DNA from: Diplolepis rosae
Lineage: Eukaryota > Arthropoda > Insecta > Hymenoptera > Diplolepididae
NCBI GenBank assembly: GCA_030998225.1
Contig: JAPYXD010000608.1
Coordinates: forward strand, 2,634,501 to 2,698,500
Reading direction: 5' to 3'
DNA: 64,000 nucleotides
Shown: in pieces, positions 38,043 through 61,251 of the stretch
Layout: each line of letters starts with the position of its first letter
Numbering within the stretch: position 1 is the stretch's first letter
The notes under the pieces: generated by a model
The model's input: only the letters and a program-made list of their open reading frames with translations
The model's database searches: none
Told to the model about the DNA's origin: nothing
Position numbers and translations under genes: made by a program

Positions 38043-38799
38043 AAGGGTTTCCCAATAAGGGTGATATGTTTTGAAATTGAAAAAAAACACTGAATATTCA
38101 TTCGAAATTGATCGAAATCTTTTTTATTATATTGGATATTCTATGCCATTTATGATTTAAACAATATATCGGCCAAATGTCCCCCGAGACTTGAGCCAAA
38201 AATGCGCCTCATCAGAAAAGATGATTTTTTAATGAAAATTGGGATCATTTTCAATTGATTCCAGAGCCCAATCCGCGAAGTCCCGACGCAAACGATGGTC
38301 ATTAGGCTTCAGTTCTTGGGCCAGAATCATCTTATAGGGATGCAGGCCAAGATCCAATCGCAAAATACGCCAGGTAGTCATCCTGGACAGGCCCAATTCC
38401 TGAGATCGGCGTGGCACGGACAATTCACAGTTTTCCTCGATACTGGCCTGTACGGCGGCTATATTCTGTGTAGAACGTGCGGTACGCATACGATTTTTAG
38501 GCTTAGTATCCAATAGAGTAAATTCACTCTCCAACTTATCGATTATTCGACGAATTGAGAGCGTGGATGGAGCAGAATGACGACCATATTTTGCACGATA
38601 TGCTCTTTGAACACCGACAAAACTTCTCGAATTTTGATAAAATAATTGGACAATTTCCAAACGTTGTGGAAGCGTGAAACTACTCATGATTAAATGGCAA
38701 ACCTTACTGATGACACCTGACAGCAGACGTCAAAAATTTCAGTTCAAATGAGCCCGATAGGGACATTCAAAATCATATCACCCCTATTGGGAAACCCTT
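38043..38799 (-). mobile_element. Tc1-like element inserted at TA within the mariner
   Basis: Inverted ends AAGGGTTTCCCAATA(A/G)GGG with TA on both sides (38041-38042, 38800-38801). Outside the element the mariner frame resumes at KKTAVKSHRIL. Only 757 bp remain; the interior holds the N-terminal half of a transposase. Confidence 0.85.
38229..38687 (-). pseudogene. Tc1/mariner-type transposase, N-terminal half
   Basis: 152 codons starting MSSFTLPQRLEIVQLFYQNS with two helix-turn-helix units (RAYRAKYGRH and SVPRRSQELGLSRMTTWRIL), then after a stop IIFSDEAHFWLKS, the first catalytic Asp. The remaining DDE core is deleted and the sequence jumps to the 3' non-coding end. The frame up to the stop is intact. 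Confidence 0.85.
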
Positions 38800-41692: not shown

Positions 41693-41757
41693 GTAACTTC
41701 CTGAGTTATCATTTCTGGACCCTAAAGCCAGTTATTAACATCAACATCGTATACAAT

Positions 41758-44175
41758 TATTATAAATAATAAATTAATATTTATTTAAAAGATGAAAAAG
41801 TGTACGCGGAGGCTTCACAAACTGTAGGACACTTTTGTGTCCCTTTTTTTTATTTTTAAGTAGGATCGTTTTCGGAATCCTTACTTTCTCTACTGGCTAC
41901 TAGAAAGGAATATAAAATGCTAGAATTTCGATGAAAAGAAAATATCTACTAAATTTCGGAAAGGCTCAACCAGGAGATTTTGCTTCTATATTCAAATAAA
42001 ATATTATAAATTGAGAACGATACAGCTTACCGATATTTGTAGTTAACTCTACCAGTTGGTAGGACAAGGGTTGGAGAAGAAGGCTGTCTTCGATGTCACC
42101 CTTGATTTTCTGACTCAACTGGGCTTTTAAAAATTCTGTGATGCGTGACTAAAACTAGTCACTCTTGTTCATTTTTCACCGATTGCACGTGTTTGCAATT
42201 AACGCACACACACGAATTCTCGACACTTTTGCCTTGTTAATTTTATAAAAATTAAAAGATGGATGGTTTCGAACCAGAAAGAAAACAGTACTTTTAAATT
42301 GTGTTCTTTCTCCACTTTTAATCGTTTATAAGCTTAATGTGGCTTCTCGAAAAATATCTTCTCGTCGTTTTGAGATTCGACGACAGGATTATTTTTCGGA
42401 ACTTTGCTTTTCAACGCCAGGCTGTACACGCACAGTTAACTCTCGCGGCTAACCGACCACCGACGCACTCAAAATATTATTTCAGAAGCGTAGTGATAAA
42501 AAATTTTACTTGCATAATTTTTTAGCGCGACAACCCCGTGAACGGCTTTCGTCGGAGGAAAGATTTTAGAAGTATTTACGTCCGCCCAAGTAAAATCCCC
42601 AATTTGTTGCCCTGGCTAGGTCTTTTCACGAATCTAGGTCAACTATCCAGGTGATAGGACTTACTTGTTCCGAACCGCGGACGGGCGAATGCAAATAACC
42701 GTGTCTTGCTCTTTAGACTTCTTACCCGGAGTAAGAAGCTCGTCAGACTGCGTTTTTGATTTCAAATTGATTGATTTTTATGGAATTGTATCGATGTCAT
42801 ACAGGTGGGGAATAGTGATGACTTGGAAATATTTCTATGTGGCGTGATTTCTGTGAAGAGGAATTTTTGCTGAGAAAGAATTTGGAAATATTGAAGACCT
42901 AAATACTTGGTAGTTTTGAAATTCTTCATGTCTATTGCCAAGTGAGAATTTTTGTTGACTTGGTATTTTATTAGTTAATGATAATTTCTGGATTATTCCA
43001 GAATTTTAACAAGTCGTAGGTCAATATCAGGATTTTAGATTGACCTTTAGAATTTTTGTGGAATCTGACACCTTTTCGATTTTTCATATTTTCAGAAAAA
43101 TGTTGGTTCAGATTCTATTGGTAATGTATTACTCACTGGCCGACAATTTTTCAGCTACTCAAGCTTTAGGTATAATAAATAATAGGAACAGTGATTTAAT
43201 GGATTGAGGTGGTTTCAGGAATACTATTGTATGCATAACATCGATACCAGCGGTCAAAGATTTTTAGCGCGTGGTCTCTAACATGCGTAGGATCCGTCAA
43301 AGTCGGTGCGTAAGCTGTTTACGGCAGGCGTAAGGTGTCATGACGTCACCGCAAGGGTTATACCTGCGCTTACAGCCACTAGGGTCCAGCTTACGTGTGT
43401 GTGAGCATTTTCCTTTTCGTTTTCCTTTTCCTTCTTTCTCCGTTATTTATCCTACCTACGTGCGTTCGCTGTTTTCTCGCATTCTCTTCTCTATCGTTCT
43501 TTACAATTTTTAAACTTCCACGTTTTTCTTAATCTTCATTCATTCCATTTACATTATTTTAATTCATTCTTCCATTCTTACTTCATGCCTGCTTAATTTA
43601 ATTTTATTATATATTTACATGCATACATTTAGGTGCCAATATCTTTTGTCATAATTGGCACGTGAATATATGCACACACATTCAAACATGGACACAAATC
43701 TAAACGCTCAAGTTAGCGTTATTATGAATAGCCCATGTTATATTATCTATGATAATATAACAAAAGTATACAATACATATATATATATACATACATAAAC
43801 CACATACACAACATATATAATATACATCATATATATAAATATGACACAGCATATATAATATATATTATATTATAGATCATACATATACACATATACACCT
43901 ACAACCCTATTTATTATTATAAACAATCTTTCCCATTGTATGGAGATTGTTCTTTTAGTTTTGAGTTTTCTTAATATGTTTAGGTCCTTGAACCGACCCC
44001 TTTACCTGCCTCTGCTGAGCGTGCAAAAGCGCTCAGGTTACGAGAACCGTGAATGAACTATTTATTGTTTATTTGAGTCTTGCGTAAATACTTCGCTTGG
44101 GTAATAATAAAATATTTTTATGAAATTACAACTTATTATAATTTTTAATATTTTATTCACGGTTTGCTCGTAACA
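41758..44175 (-). repeat. 3' LTR (lacks the last 38 bp)
   Basis: Matches 55502-57920 nearly base for base. It starts (sense) TGTTACGAGC at 44175 and ends abruptly at 41758, next to Penelope sequence, without the final CATACGTAACA found in the other LTR. Short ORFs inside it occur identically in both LTRs and are not considered genes. A clean polypurine tract next to the LTR start was not found. Confidence 0.88.
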
Positions 44176-44451: not shown

Positions 44452-46323
44452 TTACATTGGTTGCAAGCTTTGTGCTGGTAATCGGGTAGCTGCCTTCGAT
44501 GTGGAAGTACTGATTGGTGCGGTCCTGTTCTTTGGAGCAGGTGTATTCGTGGTGGTGGTGCATCGTTGTTCTATTCTGAATTCATCTGAATGGGAATCAG
44601 CTGCTTGATTGACCGCTGGTTCCTCAGCCAAACGAATAGCTGGTTGATCCTCGGCTTTACCCTTTCGTTTTGGGCATGGCCTCCAATTAGTCACTGCCGT
44701 TATCAGTTTGGCGCGACCAAAGTAGGTTATTAAACCTATGGAGAGGAGTCCTATCCCGACGTAGGAGCCGTGGGTCAGGATGGTCTGCTGGGTTCTTCTG
44801 TGTTCTTGAGAACTGATTTCGTTGAGCTGGTCTTCAAGTTTGTTCAACGTCTCGTCAGTATTTCCAAACCTGCTTTCTTCAGTCGGGTTGTCTTCAGGCT
44901 GTTTCTTTGAAGTTGGGGTTAGAGTCAAAAGTTGCTTGTTCTGAAGCAGGCCCGGTGATAGCTCGGATAGGTTCAGGTGGAGGTACGGCTCATAGGTAAC
45001 CACAGAAACCTGTGCTCTTGAGCCTGGTGATGGTAGGCTCAATCCGCTAGTCCTCAAGTAGCATCCCGGAACAATCTGCACGATACCCACTCCGTTTAGC
45101 TGTATTTTTGAAGTCCTTCTGGCTGGACAAGTTATTTCAGCTGCAGTTTTCGTCAGGAAAGAGTAGATCCAGCCGCCTAGAGTCTCCAGAAGCTTGAAGA
45201 AGGGACGTTTCCTGTAGGTCACCTGGAATTCGCATAGTCGGAACGACTCGACCGTAGGATTGTTCAATAGGGAGATCTCACAGGATGCATAAGTAGATGT
45301 TTCGCGTACTGGTAGGTTCTCAGGACACATGTAGAATCCTCTTAGTTCCTTGCACTGTTCCATTTCCTTTTCCTTCATTAGGAGATAAGTCCGTTGCGAG
45401 TCCGCCATAGCTAAGTGAGAAAATTCGGAGCGGACATATGCTCTTCCCGAACCATTCTTCAGAATAGATTGGATCACCGGTACGGAATGTAGTCCGTACA
45501 GATTGTAGTCGGTCTTTTCTAGCAGAGAAACGTCCAAGCATACCCTGAGCGTTTTATTCCTGCAGGAAATTGTCGTAGTTGTTGCCTGGGCGAGGTCCTC
45601 AACGTTTATTTTGGGCCCTGGAACCGGAAAGGCAAATGCGGGAGCGTGATCTTGAACGTCCCGATATATTGGTTGCAATTTTTCTGTAGTCAGCAATGAG
45701 GGATGCAACTGTCCTCGACGGGCGTAATGGATAATTTCTAGCAATCGATCGGCCGCTCGAAGGTGCTCATCGAGTCCTGCCTCCAGAACGTGAAGCGTGT
45801 TTGAAAGTGCCCGAGAGTATTCCAGTTTGAATACAGAAGAAGACATCTCATACATGCCTTTCTGGATCTCGGTGAGCTGGTGTTTTAATTCTTTCTGACG
45901 TTCTTCGTAGATGTTGAATCGTCCTTGTATTTCCTCGAATTGTGCTCGTACTACGTGAGTCTGTTTCCCTACCAGGTGTGATAGATTAGCAGCCACCTGG
46001 TTGAGGTTATTAATTTCATCCTCGATTTGCTGACCATCGTCGTATGTGAGAAGGCCAGCGACGGGGTAGACGATGCCTCCCAGAAATCCTAGCATTGGGG
46101 TTGTTCTTCGTCGCCTTAGCCCCTGGGGCAAGTGTGCTGGTAATTGGGCATCGGTTCGTCGGTTTAGTTCTTCTGCCTCATGTGTTATTTCCTGATGTAA
46201 TTTGTAGGCAGCTTCCCATTTACTTTCCAGATGGAAACTTTTTATTAGCTGTTGACATTCAGCTCCCAGCATTGGTTGGCACATTGCGGTGAGTGCAGTT
46301 AGTCGTGATTTATACGCCTCCAA
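44452..46323 (-). pseudogene. env, ectodomain, membrane anchor and tail
   Basis: 623 codons in one frame, cut off from its signal peptide by a one-base shift near 46340. Landmarks: a furin-type RRRR site at residues 70-73, followed by a hydrophobic Gly-rich fusion-peptide-like stretch (residues 77-92); a long helical region; several N-glycosylation sequons; a transmembrane segment at about 519-536; and an 87-residue tail rich in Thr, Ala and Pro. This is the layout of the baculovirus-F-like Env of errantiviruses, which would allow membrane fusion between cells. The break means this copy cannot make a secreted Env as read. Confidence 0.8.
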
Positions 46324-46523
46324 TCCAAGGCATAGCTTCTGAGTGTCCAGGAAGCTGGTGATCCTCCAGGTGGAAACTCTGCGCCTTTTACGCCCTGGTA
46401 TTCGTAGTAGAGGCCGGTACTGGCCTCAAAGGGCAGGATCCGGTAGGTCTCACTCCCTTGGCTGATGGTGTTTTTGAGCATGGCACTTGCTGCCAGAAAT
46501 AATAATAGAATGGTGGTTTCCAT
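46299..46523 (-). pseudogene. env, signal peptide and N-terminal segment
   Basis: Starts METTILLLFLAASAML, a clear signal peptide, followed by LYYEYQG, a conserved N-terminal stretch in insect errantiviral Env. The frame ends after 74 codons; the following ectodomain is in a frame one base off, and one missing base near 46340 accounts for it. In related elements env is expressed from a spliced mRNA; I could not identify the splice sites. Confidence 0.7.
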
Positions 46524-46742: not shown

Positions 46743-47716
46743 TCATCCATGAAAGATCAAAAGCTTGTCGGCGTGCTTCATGCAGCGCTCCCCGAACTTG
46801 TCCTCTAGGATTACGTTATTGTTTTCGGTAAATCCGACAATAGTGAACGATCCTTCTCTCCTACTGTCGAATTTCCCTTCCCTAACTTCTTTTATTACGT
46901 AGACTTGGTCAGCTACTTTACCCTTCAAGGGTCGAGATTTGCGATCGTAGAATTCCTTTGAGCGTTGTTTGGCCCTGACCAAATTCCGTGCCGCGATTTT
47001 CTGTATTTCCGATAGTCGGACTATCAGGTCACGCAAGTAGGAGCCGTAGGTTTCCAGTTCCTCGCCCAGGGGGAAGGAGCTAGGGGTCCTAGCTAATCGC
47101 CCAAACACAAGCTCATAGGGTGTAAAGTTGGTCGCCTCGTGAACCGAGGTATTATAGGCGAACATTGCGAATGGAAGCAGACGATCCCAGTCATCGAAGT
47201 CGCTCGCGTAATGTTTGATATAATCCGTTAGTACAATATGACTTCGTTCCAACGAACCATTGGTCTGAGGTCGATAGCCTGAAGTCGTCAGCTGTCTGAT
47301 ATTGAACAGCCCTTCCAAATTCCTCATGAATTTGCTTACAAAACTTCCTCCTCTGTCCGTAAGTATGGCTCTAGGAGCGCCATATTGCGAAAAGAGGGTC
47401 GTCGCGACGGCGTGTGCGATGGTGGTGGTCTTGAGGTTTGGTATAGGGACCGCGATTCAGTACTTGCTGAAGTTGTCCTGCATCGTGAGAATGTGGCGAT
47501 TTCCGTTAGGGGTAGTTGGTAATTTACCGACTGTATCGAGAGACACCTTGTCGAACGGTTCGGCCGGAGTGTCGGTGATGAGCATGGGTTCCCGGGTTCG
47601 AGCTCGCACGAGTTTTTGTTCAAAACAGCTCTTACAACCTCGAATAAATTCCGTGATTTGATCTCTCAGCCCGGGCCAGGTGTACCGCTCCCTAATTCTC
47701 CTGTAGGTTTTGGTTA
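46743..47716 (-). pseudogene. pol, integrase
   Basis: In a frame one base off from the preceding macro-like segment; a missing G in the GGG run near 47715 explains it. The HHCC zinc finger begins just before the shift (EYH and GGH) and ends in GCKSC. The DDE core shows SLDTVG (Asp), LTDRGGSFVSKF (Asp) and NGSLERSH (Glu), so the catalytic triad is intact, but a TGA at 47457-47459 interrupts the core between the first and second Asp. The C-terminus contains KEFYDRKSRPLKGKVADQVY, the usual post-core region. No chromodomain. Confidence 0.85.
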
Positions 47717-48787
47717 TGCCCTGTGGCCTCCTATGAGGCTGCTGTGGTATTCTTCGATTATCTTGGGCCTCATTTCAGGAGGTGGAACCTGAATCTTCCC
47801 GTGGCAAAGTGTGACAGTTATGTCACCACCCCGGAATATTTCAGACAGAATGTCTGTCATTTTATTCTGAGGCAAGGAGCCCAGGAGGTCTCCTGAATTT
47901 GCCATTCGCAGTGTTGTTTGCTTGTCCCGTTTAAGGGCCAGCTGGAGATTTTTCAGCCCCTGAATCACATCCTTCCAGTTAATTTCATCAAAGTGTCGTT
48001 TCTTCACTACGATCGAGTAGGTCTTGTGTTGTCCGTGCGAAGTGACCAGGACTTGCCCCTTTTTGGGTCGGCTTTCCCAGGCGTCTTGGAGGTCAAGACG
48101 TTCGGTGGCCACAAGCAGCTTTGCAATAGCGTTTGTGGGCTCGCAGTCTTCAGAAAGAAAATGCGCGTAGTTGTCTGGTCGGTAAGTCAGTGGTTCTGTC
48201 CACTCGTGCTTAATGCTGTGCACCTCCGTGCAATTCAGAAGAGGTTTTTGTACTTCTGGCTTTTCCTCCAAGGAAGGGGGTGACGGTGGATCGATATAAG
48301 GAATATCAACATCGATCAAAGAGCTAGAAAATGGAGTGGAGCCAACGGTGGTCGTTTCGGACGTCTCCGAACGCTGTAGTCGCCGTGGTCTAAGGTCCAG
48401 GCCTCTTCTTGTTGGGCTCTTGTTCGTATCCGTTCCTTCCTCTTCTTCGGCGATTGAGAATGGTGTCGACCTCGCGTCTGGGGCTGCAGACGGAGCTGGA
48501 GTTGGGAGTAATGATCTCCTTCAAGGTTGCCTTCCAATTATTGGGGATTCGATATCCTCAGGGAGATCCTTGAATCTCACCATGCTTTTCCTTTCCACAT
48601 CGGGATGTCTTAGATGAAGCCTAGGTGACCAAGATTCTTTTCCGTTAGTTTCACTTCCTTCTTCCAGACTTTGAAGTGGAATGGAGAGGGCCTCCTCCGC
48701 CTGGTCTGGTTTGGCAGATGATCCGGACATCCTTTCTTCATATTGTTCTAAGAAGTTCTGAACCCTTTTGAGAAAAGCGTCATCGTC
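47714..48787 (-). pseudogene. pol, linker and macro-domain-like segment
   Basis: One frame from the shift at about 48785 to 47714, with one TGA at 48521-48523. The first part is a low-complexity linker. From 48178 to 47804 about 125 residues resemble the OARD1/TARG1-type macro (ADP-ribose-binding) domain: NYAHFLSEDCEPTNAIAKLL at the first loop, KKGQVLVT and YSIVVKKRHF in the strand with a Lys pair, NSGDLLGSLP at the second loop, and GDITVTLC as the last strand. Glycines of the first loop are not conserved and the usual catalytic Asp is not in place, so hydrolase activity is doubtful. It runs straight into the integrase zinc finger. Confidence 0.55.
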
Positions 48788-49641
48788 GAACTCCCCAAGG
48801 GGTCAAGAGCCTTCAGGTTTTCCAATAGTTCTTCGTCTTCCTCACCTTCTGACACATGGGTACATACCGGAACGTTCTTCGTGTCCATGCCCTCATGATC
48901 CCAGTAGAGTGAGTCAGGGTTTATGTTGGATATGTCTAGTCCCTTTCTCCCCACAGATTTCTCGAATTGAGAGAATGATTTTTGTAAATCCTTTTTAAGG
49001 GTTTCCATATCAAATTCTTCATCACTACTGTTCTCGTCACTGTCTGTAGGCAAGGGCGGAACGTCGACAATTGCCTTCAATGGTCCACTAGGGTTATCAG
49101 CGTCTTCTTCAGATTCAGAACTAAACAGTGCTCTTCCTTCGATCCCTTCACGGGCAAGCCTATCGGCTGCCTCGTTGCCTTCAATGCCGTTATGCCCTGG
49201 GACATGGTTCCAAATTACCTCGATTGGCTCAAGTGCCTGTTTTAATTTCTCAAATTCGTTTCGGTTTTTAACAGGTTTGTTCTCAGCAGTTTTCCAGTCG
49301 TTCTTTTCCCACGTTGGGATCCATTCCGTCGCACTGCTGACTAGATATTTGTAGTCAGTGTTAATTCTTAATTTCTTTATTCCAGCCTCCTGAGCCCTTT
49401 TAGCGGCCTCAACAGCGGCCTCGATTTCAGCGGCGTTATTAGTCTGCCGACCCCGGGCTAGCCAAGAGACATTCAATGGGTTGTCTGGGCCGAACCAGAC
49501 GCCGATGCCAGCCCTGGGTTCACCTCTCCCATTGTAGCTGCAGGCGCCGTCGACGAAGACGTCTACATAGGGTTCCTGGAGTTCTCGGGAGTCCCGTTGT
49601 TCCTCGACGCCGCCAGAGCCGTTTCGCGATGCAACTTTCGT
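48748..49641 (-). pseudogene. pol, second RNase H (RNase H1-like) and acidic linker
   Basis: This frame opens at 49641 after a TGA and overlaps the end of the previous pol frame; a +1 shift links them, and a -1 shift near 48785 (one G short in a GGGG run) leads out, so the flanking pol frames are the same. The domain (49569-49144) closely follows animal RNase H1: VDVFVDGAC (Asp), RAGIGVWFGP, GRQTNNAAEI (Glu), INTDYKYL (Asp), a Trp-rich basic-protrusion stretch WIPTWEKNDWKT, VPGHNGIEGNEAADRLAREG (His and last Asp). All catalytic positions are present. After it comes an acidic, Ser-rich linker. The resemblance to a cellular gene is much closer than is normal between a Gypsy RNase H and cellular RNase H. 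Confidence 0.82.
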
Positions 49642-52543
49642 TCAGGCTGGGGCCTATCCGACCTACTGGGGGCGCGTAGGATTCATCGGAGCTTACCTTC
49701 GGCATCGTGGAAGAAGAATTAGGTGGTCTTCCCCTTCGTTTCGCCGTTTGACGGCCTTCCTCCGGCAGGATGGTGCTAATGGTTTTGGATTTAGTTGGTT
49801 TGAATATAGCAGACCTGGTGACTATGGGCTTGCCTCTTATTACCGATGGCTTTCGGTCGACAGTAGTTTCCCTTTTCGCCGTCTTTGGTTTTGTGGAGGG
49901 TGGAATTCGACCGGAAGTACCAGGTGCTGATTCGAGATGTTCAAGTCCTCTCTGCATGGTGGATGACCTCGTGCTGGGCCTTGACTTTTCTGCCTCAGCC
50001 TTGTTGCGGACCACTAACACCTGTTTGCGAGTTCTAGTTGGAATGTGCCCGTTTGAGTTGGCAGTTTCAGGATTGAATCTCCTCCTGGGCGGGAAATGGG
50101 ATTGACTCATTCCGCCAGAGTCATCAAAATCTTCACTGGATTCGGTTGAGCTTGCCAAATCCGTTTCTGCGGCTGGATTTCCAGAAAGAGCCTCAGCGCC
50201 CCTGTTTAATTTCCCTTGCTTGTACTCGAACTTATACTGGTAATCCTGGAGCCGTAATCTCCATCGTAGGAGACGTGCCCCAGGGTTCTCAACATAGGTT
50301 ATCCAGTGGATAGGTTCGTAGTCGCAAGCCAAAATAAATTCTCGTCCGTATAGGTATGGGCGAAAATTCATTACCGCGTACAATACGGCGAGGCACTCTT
50401 TCTCGGCCTCAGGGTACCTTTGTTCGCAAGTGTTCATCGTTTTCGAGAAGTATGCCACGGGCATATCTACTCCGTCTTTCTCTTGGGTCAATATTGCTCC
50501 GACCGCGTGCTCGGAGGCATCCGTGGTTAGTTTGAATGTCTTCTGAAAGTCTGGGTATAAGAGAATAGGCTCCCTACAAAGATACCTGCGAAGTCTTCTG
50601 AAGCTTCTCTTTTGGCTGTTTTCCCATTCCCATTTTACGTCCTTTTTGAGAAGGTCGGAGAGTGGTTTTGCCAATTCCGCGTAATCTTGGATGAATCTTC
50701 GGTAGTACCCAGAGAGCCCCAGGAACTGTCGGATTGCTCGCACGGTAGTGGGTCTAGGAAATTTCCTAATGGCGTTAATTTTAGCCGGGTTCGGTTTTAC
50801 CCCTTCACGCCCGATGATGTGCCCTAGGTAGGCGACTTCCGTTCGTAAAAAGTCGCACTTGTCTGGTTGCAGTTTCAGATTAGCACTCCGAAGACGATCA
50901 AAAAGTCTTCTTGCCTTTTTATCATGTTCTTCGAGATTTTCTGCATATACCACAATATCATCCAAATAGACGAATACCTCTGTTCCATGCATGCCTTTTA
51001 ACACCGTATCCATAAGGCGCTGAAAGGTAGCCGGTGCGTTCTTGATCCCCATGGGCATACGAAGGTATTCAAAGTGTCCTCTAGGTGATGAGAAAGCGGT
51101 TTTTGCTCGGTCTTCAGGGTGTGTTTCAATTTGGTGGAAACCGCTTGCCAGGTCGAACACCGAGAAGTACTGGGCATTTCCAAGCTGGTCGAAAATGTCT
51201 GAAATGTTGGGCAGTGGATAGGCATCTCCTATTACTTTTTCATTGAGGGCTCGGAAGTCGATTACAACCCTCCACTTTCTTTCGCCGGATGCATCGAGTT
51301 TTTTAGGGACGATCAAAAGTGGTGAGTTATAGGGAGACTTAGAGCTGCCTATGATGCCACTTTTATACTGTTTCTCTATCTGGGCATGTATTTGCTCAGT
51401 AGCCTCGTGAGGTGACCTGTATTGTTTCTTAACGATGATTTTATCATCGATGGTCGGAATTCGATGCTGGATCAGATGAGTGGAGGTGAGTTTCTCGCCA
51501 TTTAAGTAGAAGATGTCAGCATAGTCTTCGGCCCAGCCGAATACACAATCCTTTTCTTCAGGCGACAGGTGTGACACATGTAAACTTTGTATCACTCTCT
51601 TCACGCGATCGGAATGACTTTCTCCCAGCTGTTCCTGAGGATATTCAGACAGGTCTTCTGTCTCCGATTCCGAGAATTTTTCACCAGGGAATCTGCAGAA
51701 ATCAAAGAGGATGATTTCTTGTGGTGGGACATTAAATTCTATGTCTTGTTCTGTGGTGTTTATAGCTAGGACGTGACACTTGCCATCTTGAGCGGTGATG
51801 GCTGCTTCACCTATGTACAATCCTTCTGGGGTATCAATCCTTGGCAGGTACCCTTGATGTATTTCCGAATTGGACACGTCTATCGCAATGGGTTGCCTGG
51901 TTCTTGCTTTGATTTTCAAGATCCTGGCAAAAGGCTTGATTTCTGATTTAAGGGCTTTGTTGGCTTCCTGTGATTCCGCGTCGACAAATGGAATCGGCGT
52001 GATAGGGTTAGATACGGTGACTAGAGTATTATGCCTAAATGAAATTTGTGCTTGCTCCTGCCGTAAGTATGGTCGTCCTAAGATCCCATCGGGCGAAATA
52101 GGGAGTTCGTTTCCTACGACGTGAAATTCTACAGGACTCTTAAAAATCGTGATTTTCACTGTACCAATTGTCTTCACAGGATCGTTGGTTATGCCGGTGA
52201 TAAGGATAGAATTCATGGGTTCGATAATCATATCCAGGCGTAAAGCGTGAAGTTTCACAAGATTCACGTCAGAACCTGGGTCAACCAGGAAGGTAGCCCT
52301 AGGACCTCGGAATTCGGATGCAGTTAGTTCAACTACTGGTGAGTCTTCTTGGCTGCGTCCCGTTCGAAGGACCCTACGGAGTTCTCCTGTAAGTGGACGA
52401 ACTTGGGACGCTCTTGTATAGTTGAGTGACTCGTCACAGCGTCCGAGCGACGAGTCGATTGGGAGTTTAAAGCTCCTGATGGTCCTGGAGAGGCTGACCG
52501 GGGAGGAGTCATGCTTCCTGTAGTCTTGCTTTGCCCTTGCCAC
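49520..52543 (-). CDS. pol, protease-reverse transcriptase-RNase H (1)
   Basis: 1007 codons, in the -1 frame relative to gag and overlapping it by 211 bases, as expected for gag-pol frameshifting. Protease: LVDPGSDVNL (Asp88). Reverse transcriptase: about 400-650, with WRVVIDFRALN, FDLASGFHQI and YLDD (526-529). RNase H: TTDAS (Asp675), AEKE (Glu714), CDYEP (Asp741), but NRGAEALS (Glu784) where Gypsy elements have NxxADALS, so the fourth catalytic Asp is lost. Residues about 790-1000 form a basic, Ser/Pro/Thr-rich linker containing KRRGRPP, an AT-hook. The last about 35 codons are read past the +1 shift point and are probably not native. Confidence 0.9.
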   Translation of the reverse strand: MARAKQDYRKHDSSPVSLSRTIRSFKLPIDSSLGRCDESLNYTRASQVRPLTGELRRVLRTGRSQEDSPVVELTASEFRGPRATFLVDPGSDVNLVKLHALRLDMIIEPMNSILITGITNDPVKTIGTVKITIFKSPVEFHVVGNELPISPDGILGRPYLRQEQAQISFRHNTLVTVSNPITPIPFVDAESQEANKALKSEIKPFARILKIKARTRQPIAIDVSNSEIHQGYLPRIDTPEGLYIGEAAITAQDGKCHVLAINTTEQDIEFNVPPQEIILFDFCRFPGEKFSESETEDLSEYPQEQLGESHSDRVKRVIQSLHVSHLSPEEKDCVFGWAEDYADIFYLNGEKLTSTHLIQHRIPTIDDKIIVKKQYRSPHEATEQIHAQIEKQYKSGIIGSSKSPYNSPLLIVPKKLDASGERKWRVVIDFRALNEKVIGDAYPLPNISDIFDQLGNAQYFSVFDLASGFHQIETHPEDRAKTAFSSPRGHFEYLRMPMGIKNAPATFQRLMDTVLKGMHGTEVFVYLDDIVVYAENLEEHDKKARRLFDRLRSANLKLQPDKCDFLRTEVAYLGHIIGREGVKPNPAKINAIRKFPRPTTVRAIRQFLGLSGYYRRFIQDYAELAKPLSDLLKKDVKWEWENSQKRSFRRLRRYLCREPILLYPDFQKTFKLTTDASEHAVGAILTQEKDGVDMPVAYFSKTMNTCEQRYPEAEKECLAVLYAVMNFRPYLYGREFILACDYEPIHWITYVENPGARLLRWRLRLQDYQYKFEYKQGKLNRGAEALSGNPAAETDLASSTESSEDFDDSGGMSQSHFPPRRRFNPETANSNGHIPTRTRKQVLVVRNKAEAEKSRPSTRSSTMQRGLEHLESAPGTSGRIPPSTKPKTAKRETTVDRKPSVIRGKPIVTRSAIFKPTKSKTISTILPEEGRQTAKRRGRPPNSSSTMPKVSSDESYAPPVGRIGPSLNESCIAKRLWRRRGTTGLPRTPGTLCRRLRRRRLQLQWER

Positions 52544-53700
52544 GACGAGTTGCCGGGTGCTTTATGACCCTTTTCGACTGGTGGACATTGCATCATGGCG
52601 GGATGAGGAGGATAAGGGTAGTGGGGTGGATATGGGTAGTTCAATGGGTATTGAGGAAAGGAATAAGGATATTGAGACTGATAATTAGTTTGATAAGGAG
52701 GGTAGGGCAAATGGTATTGACTGTACATTGATGTGTACATTGGGGCCTGGTTTGTTGGAGTGCTAGGTCCTGTCATTGTCAGAGTTGTGCTTCCCTTTGA
52801 ACTTGGCCTCTCGGATTTTACCTGCTTCTCCGCATGTTCCATTTGCTTTGAGAAGGGGCTTGGTGAGCGTTGACGCTCTGACGCAAATTCTCTGGGCCGC
52901 GCGATATGATAGGATGACGCAGCGTTTCTTGCTTTCTCAGTATACGTCTGTCGTTCTTCGGCATGCAGGGCGTGTTCAAACGCCTCGCTAAGATCTTTTG
53001 GATTGCGGGTGTCGACAAAAATTGATATATCATCTGGTAGGCCCCTAATAAAGGCGTCTAAAGCACAGTCGATCACTGGCTTCATCATAATGGCGCTTTC
53101 TTTGGTGGGTCCGTACGTGCCTGTATATTTTTCTTCAATCGCGTGTCTAGCGCCGCTCAAAAGGCCTTGTAGACGATCGTTATAATCGCTCACGGTTTCC
53201 GATTGTTTCATCCGGAGGTTAACGATAGATTCGAAGTACCATTGGTACTTTTTCGTCGGCGCGAATCTTTTCTTTAGGTGCGCTATTAGGTCTTTTACCC
53301 TAGAGAACTGTTTGTCGCGGACGCTTTCCCGAGCTACACCTTCGAGCTTGGCTAACACGGCCTTGATGAAACCGGGTTCCGTAATGTCGGTTACAAATAC
53401 TGCTCCGTTTGCGACATCCTGTAAGAATTCTTTTAGGGGCGGATTTTTACCGTCGAATTGGGGGATATGGTATGTACTCTGCTGCAGAGTCATACACTCC
53501 AATACCGATGCCATTGCCGCGCTTGTATTTAAATTGAGATAGGAGGCGGGGGTCGGAATATTCGCAGGGTCTCCGGTTAATGAATCCGAAACACTTTGGT
53601 TTAAGAGTATTTGAGTATCCTGTTCGGGATCCGTATCCAAGTTGTTTCGACCGTGGTCGTCCCCATGTTGGGGCGGGTTCCGATCTACGTTTCTAGGCAT
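52333..53700 (-). CDS. gag
   Basis: 455 codons without interruption, starting MPRNVDRNPPQHGDD. Residues about 70-260 (IPQFDGKNPPLKEFLQDVAN through LPDDISIFVDTRN) match the helical capsid region of Gypsy/errantivirus Gag. The C-terminal part is Pro/Tyr/Ser-rich (PPYQ, YPYPPHY repeats) and has no CCHC zinc knuckle, as in other errantiviruses. The end overlaps pol in the -1 frame. It would form the capsid around the genomic RNA. Confidence 0.85.
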   Translation of the reverse strand: MPRNVDRNPPQHGDDHGRNNLDTDPEQDTQILLNQSVSDSLTGDPANIPTPASYLNLNTSAAMASVLECMTLQQSTYHIPQFDGKNPPLKEFLQDVANGAVFVTDITEPGFIKAVLAKLEGVARESVRDKQFSRVKDLIAHLKKRFAPTKKYQWYFESIVNLRMKQSETVSDYNDRLQGLLSGARHAIEEKYTGTYGPTKESAIMMKPVIDCALDAFIRGLPDDISIFVDTRNPKDLSEAFEHALHAEERQTYTEKARNAASSYHIARPREFASERQRSPSPFSKQMEHAEKQVKSERPSSKGSTTLTMTGPSTPTNQAPMYTSMYSQYHLPYPPYQTNYQSQYPYSFPQYPLNYPYPPHYPYPPHPAMMQCPPVEKGHKAPGNSSWQGQSKTTGSMTPPRSASPGPSGALNSQSTRRSDAVTSHSTIQERPKFVHLQENSVGSFERDAAKKTHQ

Positions 53701-54210: not shown

Positions 54211-54732
54211 TTAGAATTCAGAGTCACTAATCAGTATGGTCCTGTCGGTAGACTTTAAGCTCTCAGAAACTATTGTTTCCGCGTCACTTGGTACTTCTGT
54301 TTCCGAATCTGAGGATAAGTTTATTATGGATGACTCGGACTCTGAAGCCAGGTCTATGACAGGTACTCCTAATTCTAGATTTGAATGTTTTGAGAATTGA
54401 GGTTCGCAGAGCTTTTGGCCTGGTTTTTTAACTAGAGGTTTGTGGTCGTACACTTGTTTGAATTTGAGAGACGTGGCCGGAACCTGTAACGAGTCTACCT
54501 TTTGAGACGTTTTCTTCTGAATTGTACTTTCTGCTCGTTCCAGAAGGGATTCGAACAGACTTGAAAATTCGTCGAAATTTTTAATTTCGCGAATTTGGTC
54601 CGGATTTTCACTTACAATTGACTGCGTTACCTGCTCCTGAAATTCTGCGAATTGCTTTCTTTGGCGCAAGTCCCTTCCTCCTCTAGGGCGTTTTCGGCGA
54701 GAGATGTCAATAGCCACCGTTAGATGCGACAT
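54211..54732 (-). CDS. Leader ORF with three SUMO-interaction-like motifs
   Basis: 173 codons between the primer site and gag, intact, on the same strand as the virus. The N-terminus is basic (residues 12-26, RRKRPRGGRDLRQRK), a likely nuclear localisation signal; residues 50-75 may form a helix. The C-terminal third has three hydrophobic cores flanked by acidic and serine residues: VIDL (125-128), IINL (136-139) and ILIS (166-169). This is the classic form of SUMO-interacting motifs. I recognise no homologue. A nuclear, SUMO-binding accessory protein is inference. Confidence 0.6.
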   Translation of the reverse strand: MSHLTVAIDISRRKRPRGGRDLRQRKQFAEFQEQVTQSIVSENPDQIREIKNFDEFSSLFESLLERAESTIQKKTSQKVDSLQVPATSLKFKQVYDHKPLVKKPGQKLCEPQFSKHSNLELGVPVIDLASESESSIINLSSDSETEVPSDAETIVSESLKSTDRTILISDSEF

Positions 54733-55463: not shown

Positions 55464-57920
55464 TGTTACGTATGGGTGGTAGGGATAAATAAATAATTAA
55501 ATATTATAAATAATAAATTAATATTTATTTAAAAGATGAAAAAGTGTACGCGGAAGCTTCACAAACTGTAGGACACTTTTGTGTCCCTTTTTTTTATTTT
55601 TAAGTAGGATCGTTTTCGGAATCCTTACTTTCTCTACTGGCTACTAGAAAGGAATATAAAATGCTAGAATTTCGATGAAAAGAAAATATCTACTAAATTT
55701 CGGAAAGGCTCAACCAGGAGATTTTGCTTCTATATTCAAATAAAATATTATAAATTGAGAACGATACAGCTTACCGATATTTGTAGTTAACTCTACCAGT
55801 TGGTAGGACAAGGGTTGGAGAAGAAGGCTGTCTTCGATGTCACCCTTGATTTTCTGACTCAACTGAGCTTTTAAAAATTCTGTGATGCGTGACTAAAACT
55901 AGTCACTCTTGTTCATTTTTCACCGATTGCACGTGTTTGCAATTAACGCACACACACGAATTCTCGACACTTTTGCCTTGTTAATTTTATATAAATTAAA
56001 AGATGGATGGTTTCGAACCAGAAAGAAAACAGTACTTTTAAATTGTGTTCTTTCTCCACTTTTAATCGTTTATAAGCTTAATGTGGCTTCTCGAAAAATA
56101 TCTTCTCGTCGTTTTGAGATTCGACGACAGGATTATTTTTCGGAACTTTGCTTTTCAACGCCAGGCTGTACACGCACAGTTAACTCTCGCGGCTAACCGA
56201 CCACCGACGCACTCAAAATATTATTTCAGAAGCGTAGTGATAAAAAATTTTACTTGCATAATTTTTTAGCGCGACAACCCCGTGAACGGCTTTCGTCGGA
56301 GGAAAGATTTTAGAAGTATTTACGTCCGCCCAAGTAAAATCCCCAATTTGTTGCCCTGGCTAGGTCTTTTCACGAATCTAGGTCAACTATCCAGGTGATA
56401 GGACTTACTTGTTCCGAACCGCGGACGGGCGAATGCAAATAACCGTGTCTTGCTCTTTAGACTTCTTACCCGGAGTAAGAAGCTCGTCAGACTGCGTTTT
56501 TGATTTCAAATTGATTGATTTTTATGGAATTGTATCGATGTCATACAGGTGGGGAATAGTGATGACTTGGAAATATTTCTATGTGGCGTGATTTCTGTGA
56601 AGAGGAATTTTTGCTGAGAAAGAATTTGGAAATATTGAAGACCTAAATACTTGGTAGTTTTTGAAATTCTTCATGTCTATTGCCAAGTGAGAATTTTTGT
56701 TGACTTGGTATTTTATTAGTTAATGATAATTTCTGGATTATTCCAGAATTTTAACAAGTCGTAGGTCAATATCAGGATTTTAGATTGACCTTTAGAATTT
56801 TTTTGGAATCTGACACCTTTTCGATTTTTCATATTTTCAGAAAAATGTTGGTTCAGATTCTATTGGTAATGTATTACTCACTGGCCGACAATTTTTCAGC
56901 TACTCAAGCTTTAGGTATAATAAATAATAGGAACAGTGATTTAATGGATTGAGGTGGTTTCAGGAATACTATTGTATGCATAACATCGATACCAGCGGTC
57001 AAAGATTTTTAGCGCGTGGTCTCTAACATGCGTAGGATCCGTCAAAGTCGGTGCGTAAGCTGTTTACGGCAGGCGTAAGGTGTCATGACGTCACCGCAAG
57101 GGTTATACCTGCGCTTACAGCCACTAGGGTCCAGCTTACGTGTGTGTGAGCATTTTCCTTTTCGTTTTCCTTTTCCTTCTTTCTCCGTTATTTATCCTAC
57201 CTACGTGCGTTCGCTGTTTTCTCGCATTCTCTTCTCTATCGTTCTTTACAATTTTTAAACTTCCACGTTTTTCTTAATCTTCATTCATTCCATTTACATT
57301 ATTTTAATTCATTCTTCCATTCTTACTTCATGCCTGCTTAATTTAATTTTATTATATATTTACATGCATACATTTAGGTGCCAATATCTTTTGTCATAAT
57401 TGGCACGTGAATATATGCACACACATTCAAACATGGACACAAATCTAAACGCTCAAGTTAGCGTTATTATGAATAGCCCATGTTATATTATCTATGATAA
57501 TATAACAAAAGTATACAATACATATATATATATACATACATAAACCACATACACAACATATATAATATACATCATATATATAAATATGACACAGCATATA
57601 CAATATATATTATATTATAGATCATACATATACACATATATACCTATAACCCTATTTATTATTATAAACAATCTTTCCCATTGTATGGAGATTGTTCTTT
57701 TAGTTTTGAGTTTTCTTAATATGTTTAGGTCCTTGAACCGACCCCTTTACCTGCCTCTGCTGAGCGTGCAAAAGCGCTCAGGTTACGAGAACCGTGAATG
57801 AATTATTTATTGTTTATTTGAGTCTTGCGTAAATACTTCGCTTGGGTAATAATAAAATATTTTTATGAAATTACAACTTATTATAATTTTTAATATTTTA
57901 TTCACGGTTTGCTCGTAACA
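55464..57920 (-). repeat. 5' LTR, complete, 2457 bp
   Basis: Begins TGTTACGAGC (at 57920, sense) and ends CATACGTAACA (at 55464), with matching TGTTACG/CGTAACA termini. By eye it differs from the 3' LTR at about ten single positions. This length is several times that of typical errantivirus LTRs. No conserved ORF is convincing. The flank right of 57920 is unrelated AT-rich DNA. Confidence 0.9.
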
Positions 57921-59985: not shown

Positions 59986-61251
59986 CCATCTTGATCAAAA
60001 AGTTTTAGGACTTTAGTTTTAAAATCAAAAATACAAGTTTATTCATCATAATCGATATTGTCCCCTTCAAAGTACTCCTCATCGACTGCAACGCACTTAT
60101 GCCAGTGCTTGATAGAATCCTCGAAACATTTTTTATAATCGGTTTGCGATATAGCCATCAGAGCCATCTTCCAATTTTCCATGACCTCATCTCGGGTGCT
60201 ATATCGCGTTCCGCGGAGCGGTTTCTTGAGTCGACCGAACAGAAAACAGTCGCAGGCAGCCAAATCAGATGAATACGGTTTTTGTTGGATGCTATTCGTT
60301 TTGTTTTTAGCCAAATGCTCACGGATAATGATGGCATTGTGCGACGTTGCGTTATCGTGGTTCAAAATCCACGAGTTGTTTGCCCACAAATCCGGTCTTT
60401 TTTGGCGAATTGCTTCACGCAAACTTCTCATAACGCCCAAAGGATACTCCTTGTTGACGGTCTGGCCTTCTGGAAGGAATTCATGTTGGACAACACCTCT
60501 GTAATCCATGAAAACCGTAAGCATCACCTTCTTTTTCGACTGAAAACGACGTGGTTTTTTCGGTCGCGGCTCATTGGGTGAACGCGATCCACTCGCTTGA
60601 TGTCTGGAGTGCGTGTCATACTCATAAATCCACGTCTCGTCACCAGTAATTATCCGTTTGATGAATGATGGGTCGGAGTCGACCTTGCAAAGCATGTCTT
60701 TTGCGGCATCAACGCGATCCCTTTTTTGCATGAAATTCAGGTCTTTCGGCACCAGCTTTGCAGCGACACGTCTGAGGCCAAAATCATTAACCAAAATGTC
60801 TTGAGCGGATCCGTAAGCAATGTTCAACTCCTCTGCAATCTCTCTAATGGTCAATTTGCGACTTACGGTCATCCAGCCTTTGATTTTGTTGATGTTTTCA
60901 TCAGTTTTCGCTGTCAGCGGAAAACGTTCGATCTCGTTAGAGTATCGTTGCCGAAACACTTCTCCAAGATTTCCAAAGTCTGCGCACCGTTAAATTCATT
61001 TTTTACACAAAATTTAATGGAAACTCGTTGCTGCAAAGTTGATGACATTTTTTTTTGTGCAAAATCGAAACCACACAAAAAGATAGATGTACACAATACA
61101 GCGTCACTTCAACAAATGTCAAGCTATCAAGCTGAAAATCTGTCAGTACGTCAATGACACTTCTACCAACACAACAAAAAAAGAAGAATTGAAATCGGCC
61201 GAACGAGAGCGCCACACGGTGTCGATTCCTAAAACTTTTTGATCAAAGTGG
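59986..61251 (-). mobile_element. Mariner (DD34D), nearly complete
   Basis: Inverted ends CCA(T/C)(C/T)TTGATCAAAAAGTTTT with TA at 59984-59985 and 61252-61253. The 1266-bp length is normal for mariner. The coding region has one deletion and frame change near its N-terminus. Confidence 0.88.
60039..61048 (-). pseudogene. Mariner transposase, DDD intact, N-terminal deletion
   Basis: The ATG at 61048 opens MSSTLQQRVSIKFCVKNEF and LTRSNVF, the first DNA-binding helix, and is then joined out of frame to KTDENINKIKGWM; about 25-30 residues of the linker are missing. From 60959 a 306-codon frame runs to the end without a stop: TGDETWIYEYD (Asp), LNHDNATSHN (Asp), SSDLAACDCF (Asp), with 34 residues between the last two (DD34D). 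YSPDLAPCDF would be more usual for the last motif, so drift has begun. Confidence 0.88.

Follow-up and report, generated by a model that had tools for sequence, protein, structure and literature searches.

An env-bearing element with two RNase H domains

The window, the 64-kb stretch of Diplolepis rosae DNA analysed here, carries on its minus strand a 16.2-kb env-bearing Ty3/Gypsy-type element that runs from 57920 down to 41755 (Table 1). The element encodes, in this order, gag, reverse transcriptase (RT), a native RNase H (RNHa), a second RNase H (RNHb), the integrase zinc finger, the integrase core and env. Its Gypsy-type RT-RNase H-integrase order, two LTRs and baculovirus-F-like env make it a member of Ty3/Gypsy (Metaviridae) of the env-bearing, errantivirus-like insect kind; the Gypsy-type assignment of the RT refers to an RT tree without named Gypsy clades and without retroviral rows. 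The two LTRs were 99.59% identical by blastn over 2422 columns (9 mismatches, 1 gap), which suggests a young insertion, with no rate applied. Neither a target-site duplication nor a tRNA primer site was recognised by eye at the element ends.

Table 1. Parts of the element, in window coordinates
Feature	Position	Strand	Basis
5' LTR, begins TGTTACG	55499..57920	-	blastn of LTR pair
gag ORF, 459 aa	52333..53712	-	Pfam Retrotrans_gag E 3.8e-4, under the profile's cut-off
pol ORF with RT and native RNase H, 1013 aa, TGA end at 49520	49520..52561	-	ORF and Pfam
Reverse transcriptase core (RVT_1)	50813..51304	-	Pfam E 8.1e-36, residues 420-583
Native Gypsy RNase H (RNHa), as cut for analysis	50162..50671	-	RT_RNaseH E 5.2e-32, residues 671-774
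RNHa catalytic sites	D 50519-50521, E 50402-50404, D 50321-50323, fourth = Glu 50192-50194	-	
AT-hook-like motif KRRGRPP in RNHa-RNHb linker, RT frame	49703..49741	-	pattern, no profile match
ORF with RNHb and acidic tail, 297 aa stop to stop	48748..49641	-	
Second RNase H (RNHb), RNase H1 type, 142 residues	49144..49569	-	
RNHb catalytic sites	D 49549-49551, E 49426-49428, D 49354-49356, D 49162-49164	-	
RNHb-integrase tail, stops at 48748 and 48521 in window copy	47775..49143	-	
Integrase zinc-binding domain (H2C2), split over two frames in window copy	47613..47785	-	Integrase_H2C2 E 7.4e-12
Integrase core (rve), TGA at 47457 just before	46746..47456	-	rve E 5.2e-4, under the profile's cut-off
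env ORF, 657 aa, baculovirus-F-like	44452..46425	-	Baculo_F E 2e-29
3' LTR	41755..44175	-	blastn of LTR pair

The original prediction, of an env-bearing element with a second RNase H at this position, was borne out by the Baculo_F match of env and by a Pfam RNase_H match of RNHb (E 1.9e-35, 122.5 bits). It had further placed RNHb after the native RNase H in a retrovirus-like pol holding both domains. RNHa adjoins the RT (RT_RNaseH, E 5e-32) and RNHb does lie downstream of it, but not directly, since a linker of ~250 to 310 aa separates the two and a further ~460 to 480 aa separate RNHb from the integrase (four sequences). Both domains share one open frame in other copies, whereas RNHb of the window copy lies in another frame than RT-RNHa. 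This frame difference, together with the stops and frame changes in the integrase region, indicates that the window copy is damaged; its frames were analysed as found, unrepaired, and its integrase core was 96% identical to those of three other copies (L025, L026 and L027).

Several other features lie in the window. An ORF of 173 aa between the 5' LTR and gag (54211-54732, minus strand) had no Pfam match at E 0.001. Transposase fragments occur at 60039-60959 and 778-1524, both on the minus strand (Transposase_1, E 9.8e-13, and weak below-cut-off Tc-type HTH matches), and an ORF with a DUF4817 helix-turn-helix domain (E 2.6e-13) lies at 38229-38687, also on the minus strand.

Identity and probable source of the second RNase H

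A phmmer comparison of RNHb with PDB sequences gave human RNase H1 as the top match (E 8e-42, 146 bits), followed by E. coli RNase HI (74 bits). An HIV RNase H with an engineered E. coli loop (3hyf_A) reached 57 bits, and 7xis_A, the best of the chains whose names are purely retroviral, 43 bits. The AlphaFold2 model of RNHb (pLDDT 94.5) superposed on human RNase H1 (2qkk) at 1.0 A with a TM score of 0.97. All four catalytic residues (D, E, D, D) are there in the window copy, in agreement with the earlier claim that the domain follows animal RNase H1 at its catalytic positions. Among 32 genome copies, DEDD was intact in 30 (exceptions L028 and L045) and the His was kept in 28 (changed in L035, L036, L038 and L043). 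DEDD was also kept in 7 of 10 short public proteins (not in P0005, P0010 or P0013) and in the long ones P0124, P0243 and P0244. With DEDD, the His loop and RNase H1 as closest match, RNHb is an RNase H1 catalytic domain. It is not a whole RNase H1 protein: the N-terminal hybrid-binding domain (PF01693) gave no match in the RNHb ORF.

A tree of 62 domains was built after nine near-duplicate element rows had been dropped, and without rows for RNase H of LINE, Gypsy or retroviral origin. In it, the 28 RNHb sequences from elements all fell in one clade (98/89) inside animal RNase H1. This clade grouped with RNase H1 genes of Hymenoptera, Hemiptera, thrips and Odonata (94/94). Phylogeny and structure prediction, which the original prediction had proposed as checks, agreed with it for RNHb. 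Sequence scores, tree and fold all place RNHb closest to animal RNase H1 and not with the Archaea-like type, the tree being one without archaeal rows. Mantella aurantiaca P0008, an annotated RNase H1 of 455 aa, appears by eye to hold two tandem RNase H domains.

The present host's own RNase H1 was considered as the nearest source and rejected. The window RNHb was 54% identical to the host gene versus 61% to Vespa RNase H1, and RNHb of copy L022 was 60% and 68% identical to them, respectively; the deep subfamily of L035 and L037 leaned slightly the opposite way (58% and 56% to the host gene versus 55% and 54% to Vespa). The host gene grouped in the 62-row tree with the RNase H1 gene of Leptopilina boulardi (100/95), which makes a cynipoid host probable. 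A clade of the element domains with Hymenoptera was not rejected (AU p 0.43), nor was one with cynipoid genes (AU p 0.167). The donor would have been an insect RNase H1, and probably a hymenopteran one, judging from these sequence comparisons.

The host RNase H1 gene, on contig C203, encodes its hybrid-binding domain in exons of its own, and two introns interrupt its RNase H domain; PF01693 had two matches in the genome, both next to the RNase H exons of this gene at C203. The element copies of RNHb have neither the introns of the host gene nor the hybrid-binding domain, from which we infer that the domain may have been captured through RNA. Separately, the 165-aa protein P0050 of Leptopilina heterotoma is RNase H1-like, carries no listed hybrid-binding domain and falls outside the element clade, possibly as a separate retrocopy.

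Copies, relatives and the native catalytic site

In the genome (757.7 Mb), RNHb had at least 40 DNA matches (82-100% identity), and Vespa RNase H1 had at least 138 protein-level matches among the matches listed, at least 13 of which lay in frames free of stops for 1500 aa or more. When the RT list was compared with the RNHb match lists, best candidates only, a listed RNHb was found within 3 kb downstream in 69 of 95 listed close RT copies (71-100% identity) and in 0 of 9 listed sister RT copies (65-66% identity). The first 19 element loci were chosen from RNHb matches, so that RNHb is present in them by selection; all 19 had RT and RNHa upstream and integrase downstream, several with missing or frame-broken pieces. 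In L022, L023, L024, L026 and L031 all domain matches lay in one frame, the spacer of L031 having one stop. A motif which we take to be AT-hook-like (KRRGRPP or KRRGRPR) was present in the RNHa-RNHb linker of 23 of 32 tallied RNHb-bearing copies; the pattern was not found in L023, L025, L028, L033-L035, L037, L038 or L043, nor in the sister pieces L039-L041.

Ten of the 26 close RT copies without a listed RNHb were inspected. RNHb was frame-broken in four (L043, L045, L055 and L057) and absent in six (L042, L044, L046, L053, L054 and L056). Linker and tail of the RNHb-bearing type flanked, in L044 and L053, a deletion that took RNHb and neighbouring residues, and L046 had a larger internal deletion removing RNHb; these deletions indicate that RNHb can be secondarily lost. 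In L053 (C362:2372200-2374900), RNHa, linker, tail and integrase core still form one frame without RNHb; its RT is 94% identical and lies in an open frame of 1494 aa. L053 is possibly a derivative that spread without RNHb, or a user of another copy's enzyme.

The search of other insects for an RT-RNase H-RNase H1-integrase order, which the original prediction had suggested, found it in Leptopilina boulardi. Three RNHb-bearing proteins, P0124 (1629 aa), P0243 and P0244, were recovered in a search covering 0.55 to 1.75 times the length of the query P0124. The order in P0243 was RVT_1 687-850, RT_RNaseH 938-1041, RNase_H 1386-1526, H2C2 1995-2052 and rve 2070-2167; P0124 had the same domain order and P0244 had RNase_H, H2C2 and rve. 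In the tree, the element RNHb clade also took in shorter gene models of L. heterotoma and Belonocnema kinseyi. A scan of IMG/VR for RNHb gave 13 pattern matches and 0 relatives.

In RNHa, the full DEDD was present in 114 of 120 listed relatives; the exceptions were P0123 and P0124 (DEDE), P0136 (DGDP), P0202 (HEDD), P0228 (DQDD) and P0240 (DEDN). The window copy has Glu at the fourth catalytic site, so the native domain has lost its last catalytic Asp as claimed; the residue had been called Glu784, and it is number 790 counted from the preceding stop. Across 32 distinct RNHb-bearing copies, window included and five duplicate loci (L003, L007, L010, L011 and L015) left out, the site was Glu in 28 and unreadable in 4, that is, Glu in 28 of 28 readable copies; L005 was counted as unreadable because its letter lies only at a ragged match edge. 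Outside this tally, the six inspected copies from which RNHb is absent and the RNHb-bearing L055 and L057 all had Glu. The native domain of RNHb-bearing copies is thus little degraded, with one fixed catalytic change seen, and because Asp to Glu is a conservative substitution, RNHa may retain activity. Among related proteins, P0006 and P0024 had Lys at the fourth site, P0024 also having Asn at the third. P0136 (886 aa), a close relative of the RNHb-bearing clade, has a more degraded RNHa and ends before the RNHb position.

The RNHa model (pLDDT 76) was closest to CaMV RT and Ty3 RT, then to MLV, XMRV and foamy RTs. The retroviral RTs that it resembles include 7o0h, whose title contains 'dRH', which we take to mean an RNase H-deleted RT. 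A domain that corresponds to the retroviral connection domain would be expected to show this likeness.

A sister lineage without RNHb comprises the Leptopilina proteins P0126-P0128 and the genome copies L039-L041 and L047-L049. Its RT-RNHa identity to the element is 65% for P0126 and P0127, 64% for P0128 and 65-66% for the genome copies. RNHb was not found in P0126-P0128 or L039-L041, the RNHa-integrase spacer is open in L039, L040 and L041, and the fourth site of RNHa was Asp in 6 of 6 RNHb-less neighbours read (P0126, P0127, P0128 and L039-L041). The RNHb-less sister pol P0127 (L. heterotoma) has a dsrm match (E 5.6e-5) at residues 1472-1544, after the integrase.

Alignment with the sister spacer located the position of RNHb. 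The linker of L022 aligned with residues 1-161 of the 610-residue L039 spacer (z 11.5) and its tail with residues 173-610 (z 44), which narrows the insertion point to about a dozen residues in this best alignment. In other pairs of L022, L026 or L031 with L039-L041, the linker ended at 154-173 and the tail started at 161-200, with some overlap, which places the entry of RNHb at about residues 155-200 of the sister spacer. The tail matched in 24 of 24 comparisons (L022, L026, L031 and P0124; z at least 24.5), and the RNHb-integrase tail is homologous to the stretch between RNHa and integrase in the sister lineage that lacks RNHb. The linkers of L022, L026 and L031 matched L039-L041, P0127 and P0128 at z 4.9 to 11.5 and P0129 weakly (z 1.9 to 2.8); the linker of P0124 gave no significant match to the sister spacers (z 0.8 to 2.5).

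In the RT tree one change of RNHb state suffices, and the RNHb-bearing branch has a support of 83/66; the tree labels P0136 as lacking and P0123 as bearing RNHb, though both proteins end before its position. The nearest listed relatives of the RT are hymenopteran Gypsy-type proteins, and those named among the 120 relatives are mostly hymenopteran. An env was found in pieces of the RNHb-bearing copies L050 and L051 and in one at C317 (L052), which is sister by RT group only (Baculo_F E 8e-41 in L050 and 6e-31 in L052). The presence of env on both sides suggests that, most simply, env predates the capture of RNHb.

The pair L022/L023 had dN/dS values of 0.04 (RNHb), 0.06 (RNHa) and 0.05 (RT). 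In comparisons across subfamilies, dS was saturated or nearly so and dN was 0.05 to 0.33 (crude estimate), and the pair L038/L035, both partly frame-broken, gave 0.44 for RNHb and 0.19 for RNHa. The low ratios are signs of purifying selection on both RNHb and RNHa: both domains appear to be kept, and RNHa would not simply be decaying.

Proposed history, alternatives and comparison with known systems

We propose, with a probability of about 0.86, that the ancestor of an env-bearing wasp Ty3/Gypsy-type element captured the catalytic domain of an insect RNase H1, and that RNHb may now do the cleaving and RNHa may be tether-like. An intronless copy of the catalytic domain would have been captured, most simply once, and would have landed in the spacer between the native RNase H and the integrase. 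An empty site with Asp in the sister and RNHb with Glu in the other lineage suggest such a single capture, with the change at the native site on the same branch. The lineage would already have borne env at that time. RNHb would cut the RNA strand during reverse transcription, and RNHa would persist, by analogy with retroviruses, as a folded, weakened or inactive connection or tether-like domain. The DGDP motif in RNHa of P0136, a related protein without known RNHb, counts against this explanation, as do the conservative nature of Asp to Glu, the absence of RNHb from six of the ten inspected copies, the RNHb ratio of 0.44 in L038/L035 and the support of 83/66 for the RNHb-bearing branch of the RT tree.

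An alternative that we consider unlikely, yet deserving real weight, is that RNHb is functional without replacing RNHa. It would be cleaved from pol and work by itself as an RNase H1, for instance on RNA-DNA hybrids that form at integration sites or during nuclear transcription, and RNHa, with its Glu, would work on. The long spacers on both flanks of RNHb fit this reading, as do the AT-hook-like motif (23 of 32 RNHb-bearing linkers, 0 of 3 sister pieces), the purifying selection on RNHa, the conservative nature of the change to Glu, and L053, in which RNHb is deleted in frame from an otherwise open copy. To our knowledge, retroviruses have no linker of ~250 aa of the RNHa-RNHb type. A linker of that length makes a retrovirus-like arrangement uncertain; RNHb may work apart from the RT and could be released from pol as a separate protein. 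The strict division at the fourth site, with Asp in all six RNHb-less neighbours and Glu in all 28 readable RNHb-bearing copies, speaks against a free RNHb beside a working RNHa, and the Lys of P0006 and P0024 and the Asn of P0024 are what would be expected of a relaxed active site.

We regard it as very improbable that two RNase H domains are ancestral in hymenopteran Gypsy elements and that the sister lost RNHb and regained Asp. The RT tree alone gives no direction, and RNHb deletion does occur in single copies. Against such a history, DEDD is kept in 114 of the 120 relatives, and 29 of the 30 public proteins of the RT tree, some of which end before the RNHb position, score 29-41 against RNHb versus 498 for P0124. 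The deletions of L044 and L053 reached into linker and tail, which is not the state of the sister spacer, and a clean loss with a restored canonical motif is less economical.

That RNHb is an ordinary retroelement RNase H (Gypsy, LINE or retroviral) which converged on RNase H1 would be in keeping with the abundance of RNase H in retroelements and with the weaker matches to retroviral RNase H. This is extremely unlikely given the 146 bits to human RNase H1, where the top chain with a purely retroviral name reaches 43 bits, the 61-68% identity to Vespa RNase H1 and the single clade inside animal RNase H1 (in a tree without LINE or retroviral rows). An ordinary Gypsy or LINE RNase H was rejected on the PDB scores and the RNase H1 clade.

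A processed RNase H1 pseudogene inserted by chance in the window copy alone, an outcome that the original prediction had itself set against its claim and that the out-of-frame position of RNHb in this copy might suggest, is practically dismissed by the multiple DNA and protein matches in the genome, by the RNHb that lies downstream of 69 of the 95 listed close RT copies and by its occurrence in Leptopilina boulardi.

The capture by the wasp element thus remains our preferred reading, and we hold it likely that an env-bearing insect element has here evolved the dual RNase H of retroviruses once more, independently. In this case the before-state would still be alive as sister elements of the same genome, env would have come first and native decay would only have begun. 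The original prediction had also held the gain to be independent of the retroviral one; hymenopteran Gypsy-type proteins as nearest RT relatives, and a sister with an empty site and Asp, support this.

Retroviruses, lokiretroviruses and Odin are known to have a dual RNase H (PMC9040795). PMC10508981 adds plant Tat and the oomycete elements Chronos and Archon, with the native domain degraded in the cases it describes. Papers PMC6338049 and PMC5563155 deal with helicase and other accessory domains. Full-text literature searches, covering titles and abstract starts and with subscription papers mostly outside, returned no insect dual RNase H. What appears new is that an insect Gypsy-type element with env has gained a dual RNase H independently, from an animal RNase H1, and that its before-state is preserved.

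Why retroviruses carry two RNase H folds, one of them degenerate, is an old question. A recognisable donor family (61-68% identity), a located insertion point, a living sister and one fixed native change would permit a before/after comparison of reverse-transcriptase enzymes. If the proposed history is true, the order and cost of each step (env, second RNase H, native decay) become testable, and it suggests that env-bearing elements have arrived at a dual RNase H repeatedly, which would then be no peculiarity of vertebrate viruses.

The wasp element resembles vertebrate retroviruses, lokiretroviruses and Odin, whose native domain has decayed into a tether, in the order of its two domains: an acquired RNase H, of Fungi/Metazoa type, lies behind a native one with a changed catalytic residue. 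The acquired domains of Odin and retroviruses likewise belong to the Fungi/Metazoa-like cluster (PMC10508981). It has env like retroviruses and unlike Odin, which is given as lacking env in PMC9040795. Unlike those of retroviruses and Odin, its RT is nearest to hymenopteran Gypsy-type proteins (among listed relatives, in a tree with no retroviral rows), its RNHb is still recognisable as an insect RNase H1, its RNHa is little degraded with one fixed change, and a long linker separates the domains; its env came, most simply, before the capture, and the before-state survives.

Plant Tat/Athila Ty3/Gypsy elements likewise carry an extra RNase H beside the native one, the native domain of Tat having lost its catalytic residues and being tether-like, but their acquired domain is Archaea-like (both in PMC10508981), unlike the animal RNase H1 of the wasp element. 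Chronos and Archon also gained an extra RNase H independently (PMC5348765), but in protist hosts, and the acquired domain is called plant-related in that source and Archaea-like in PMC10508981. Like the cellular RNase H1 of human and Hymenoptera, RNHb comprises the complete catalytic domain (TM 0.97; DEDD intact in 30 and His in 28 of 32 copies), but it is embedded in pol without introns or a hybrid-binding domain. The closest comparison is the RNHb-less Gypsy sister, which shares RT-RNHa at 64-66% identity, a homologous spacer and, in one copy of the sister RT group, a baculovirus-F-like env, and which differs in having no RNHb and in keeping the native fourth Asp.
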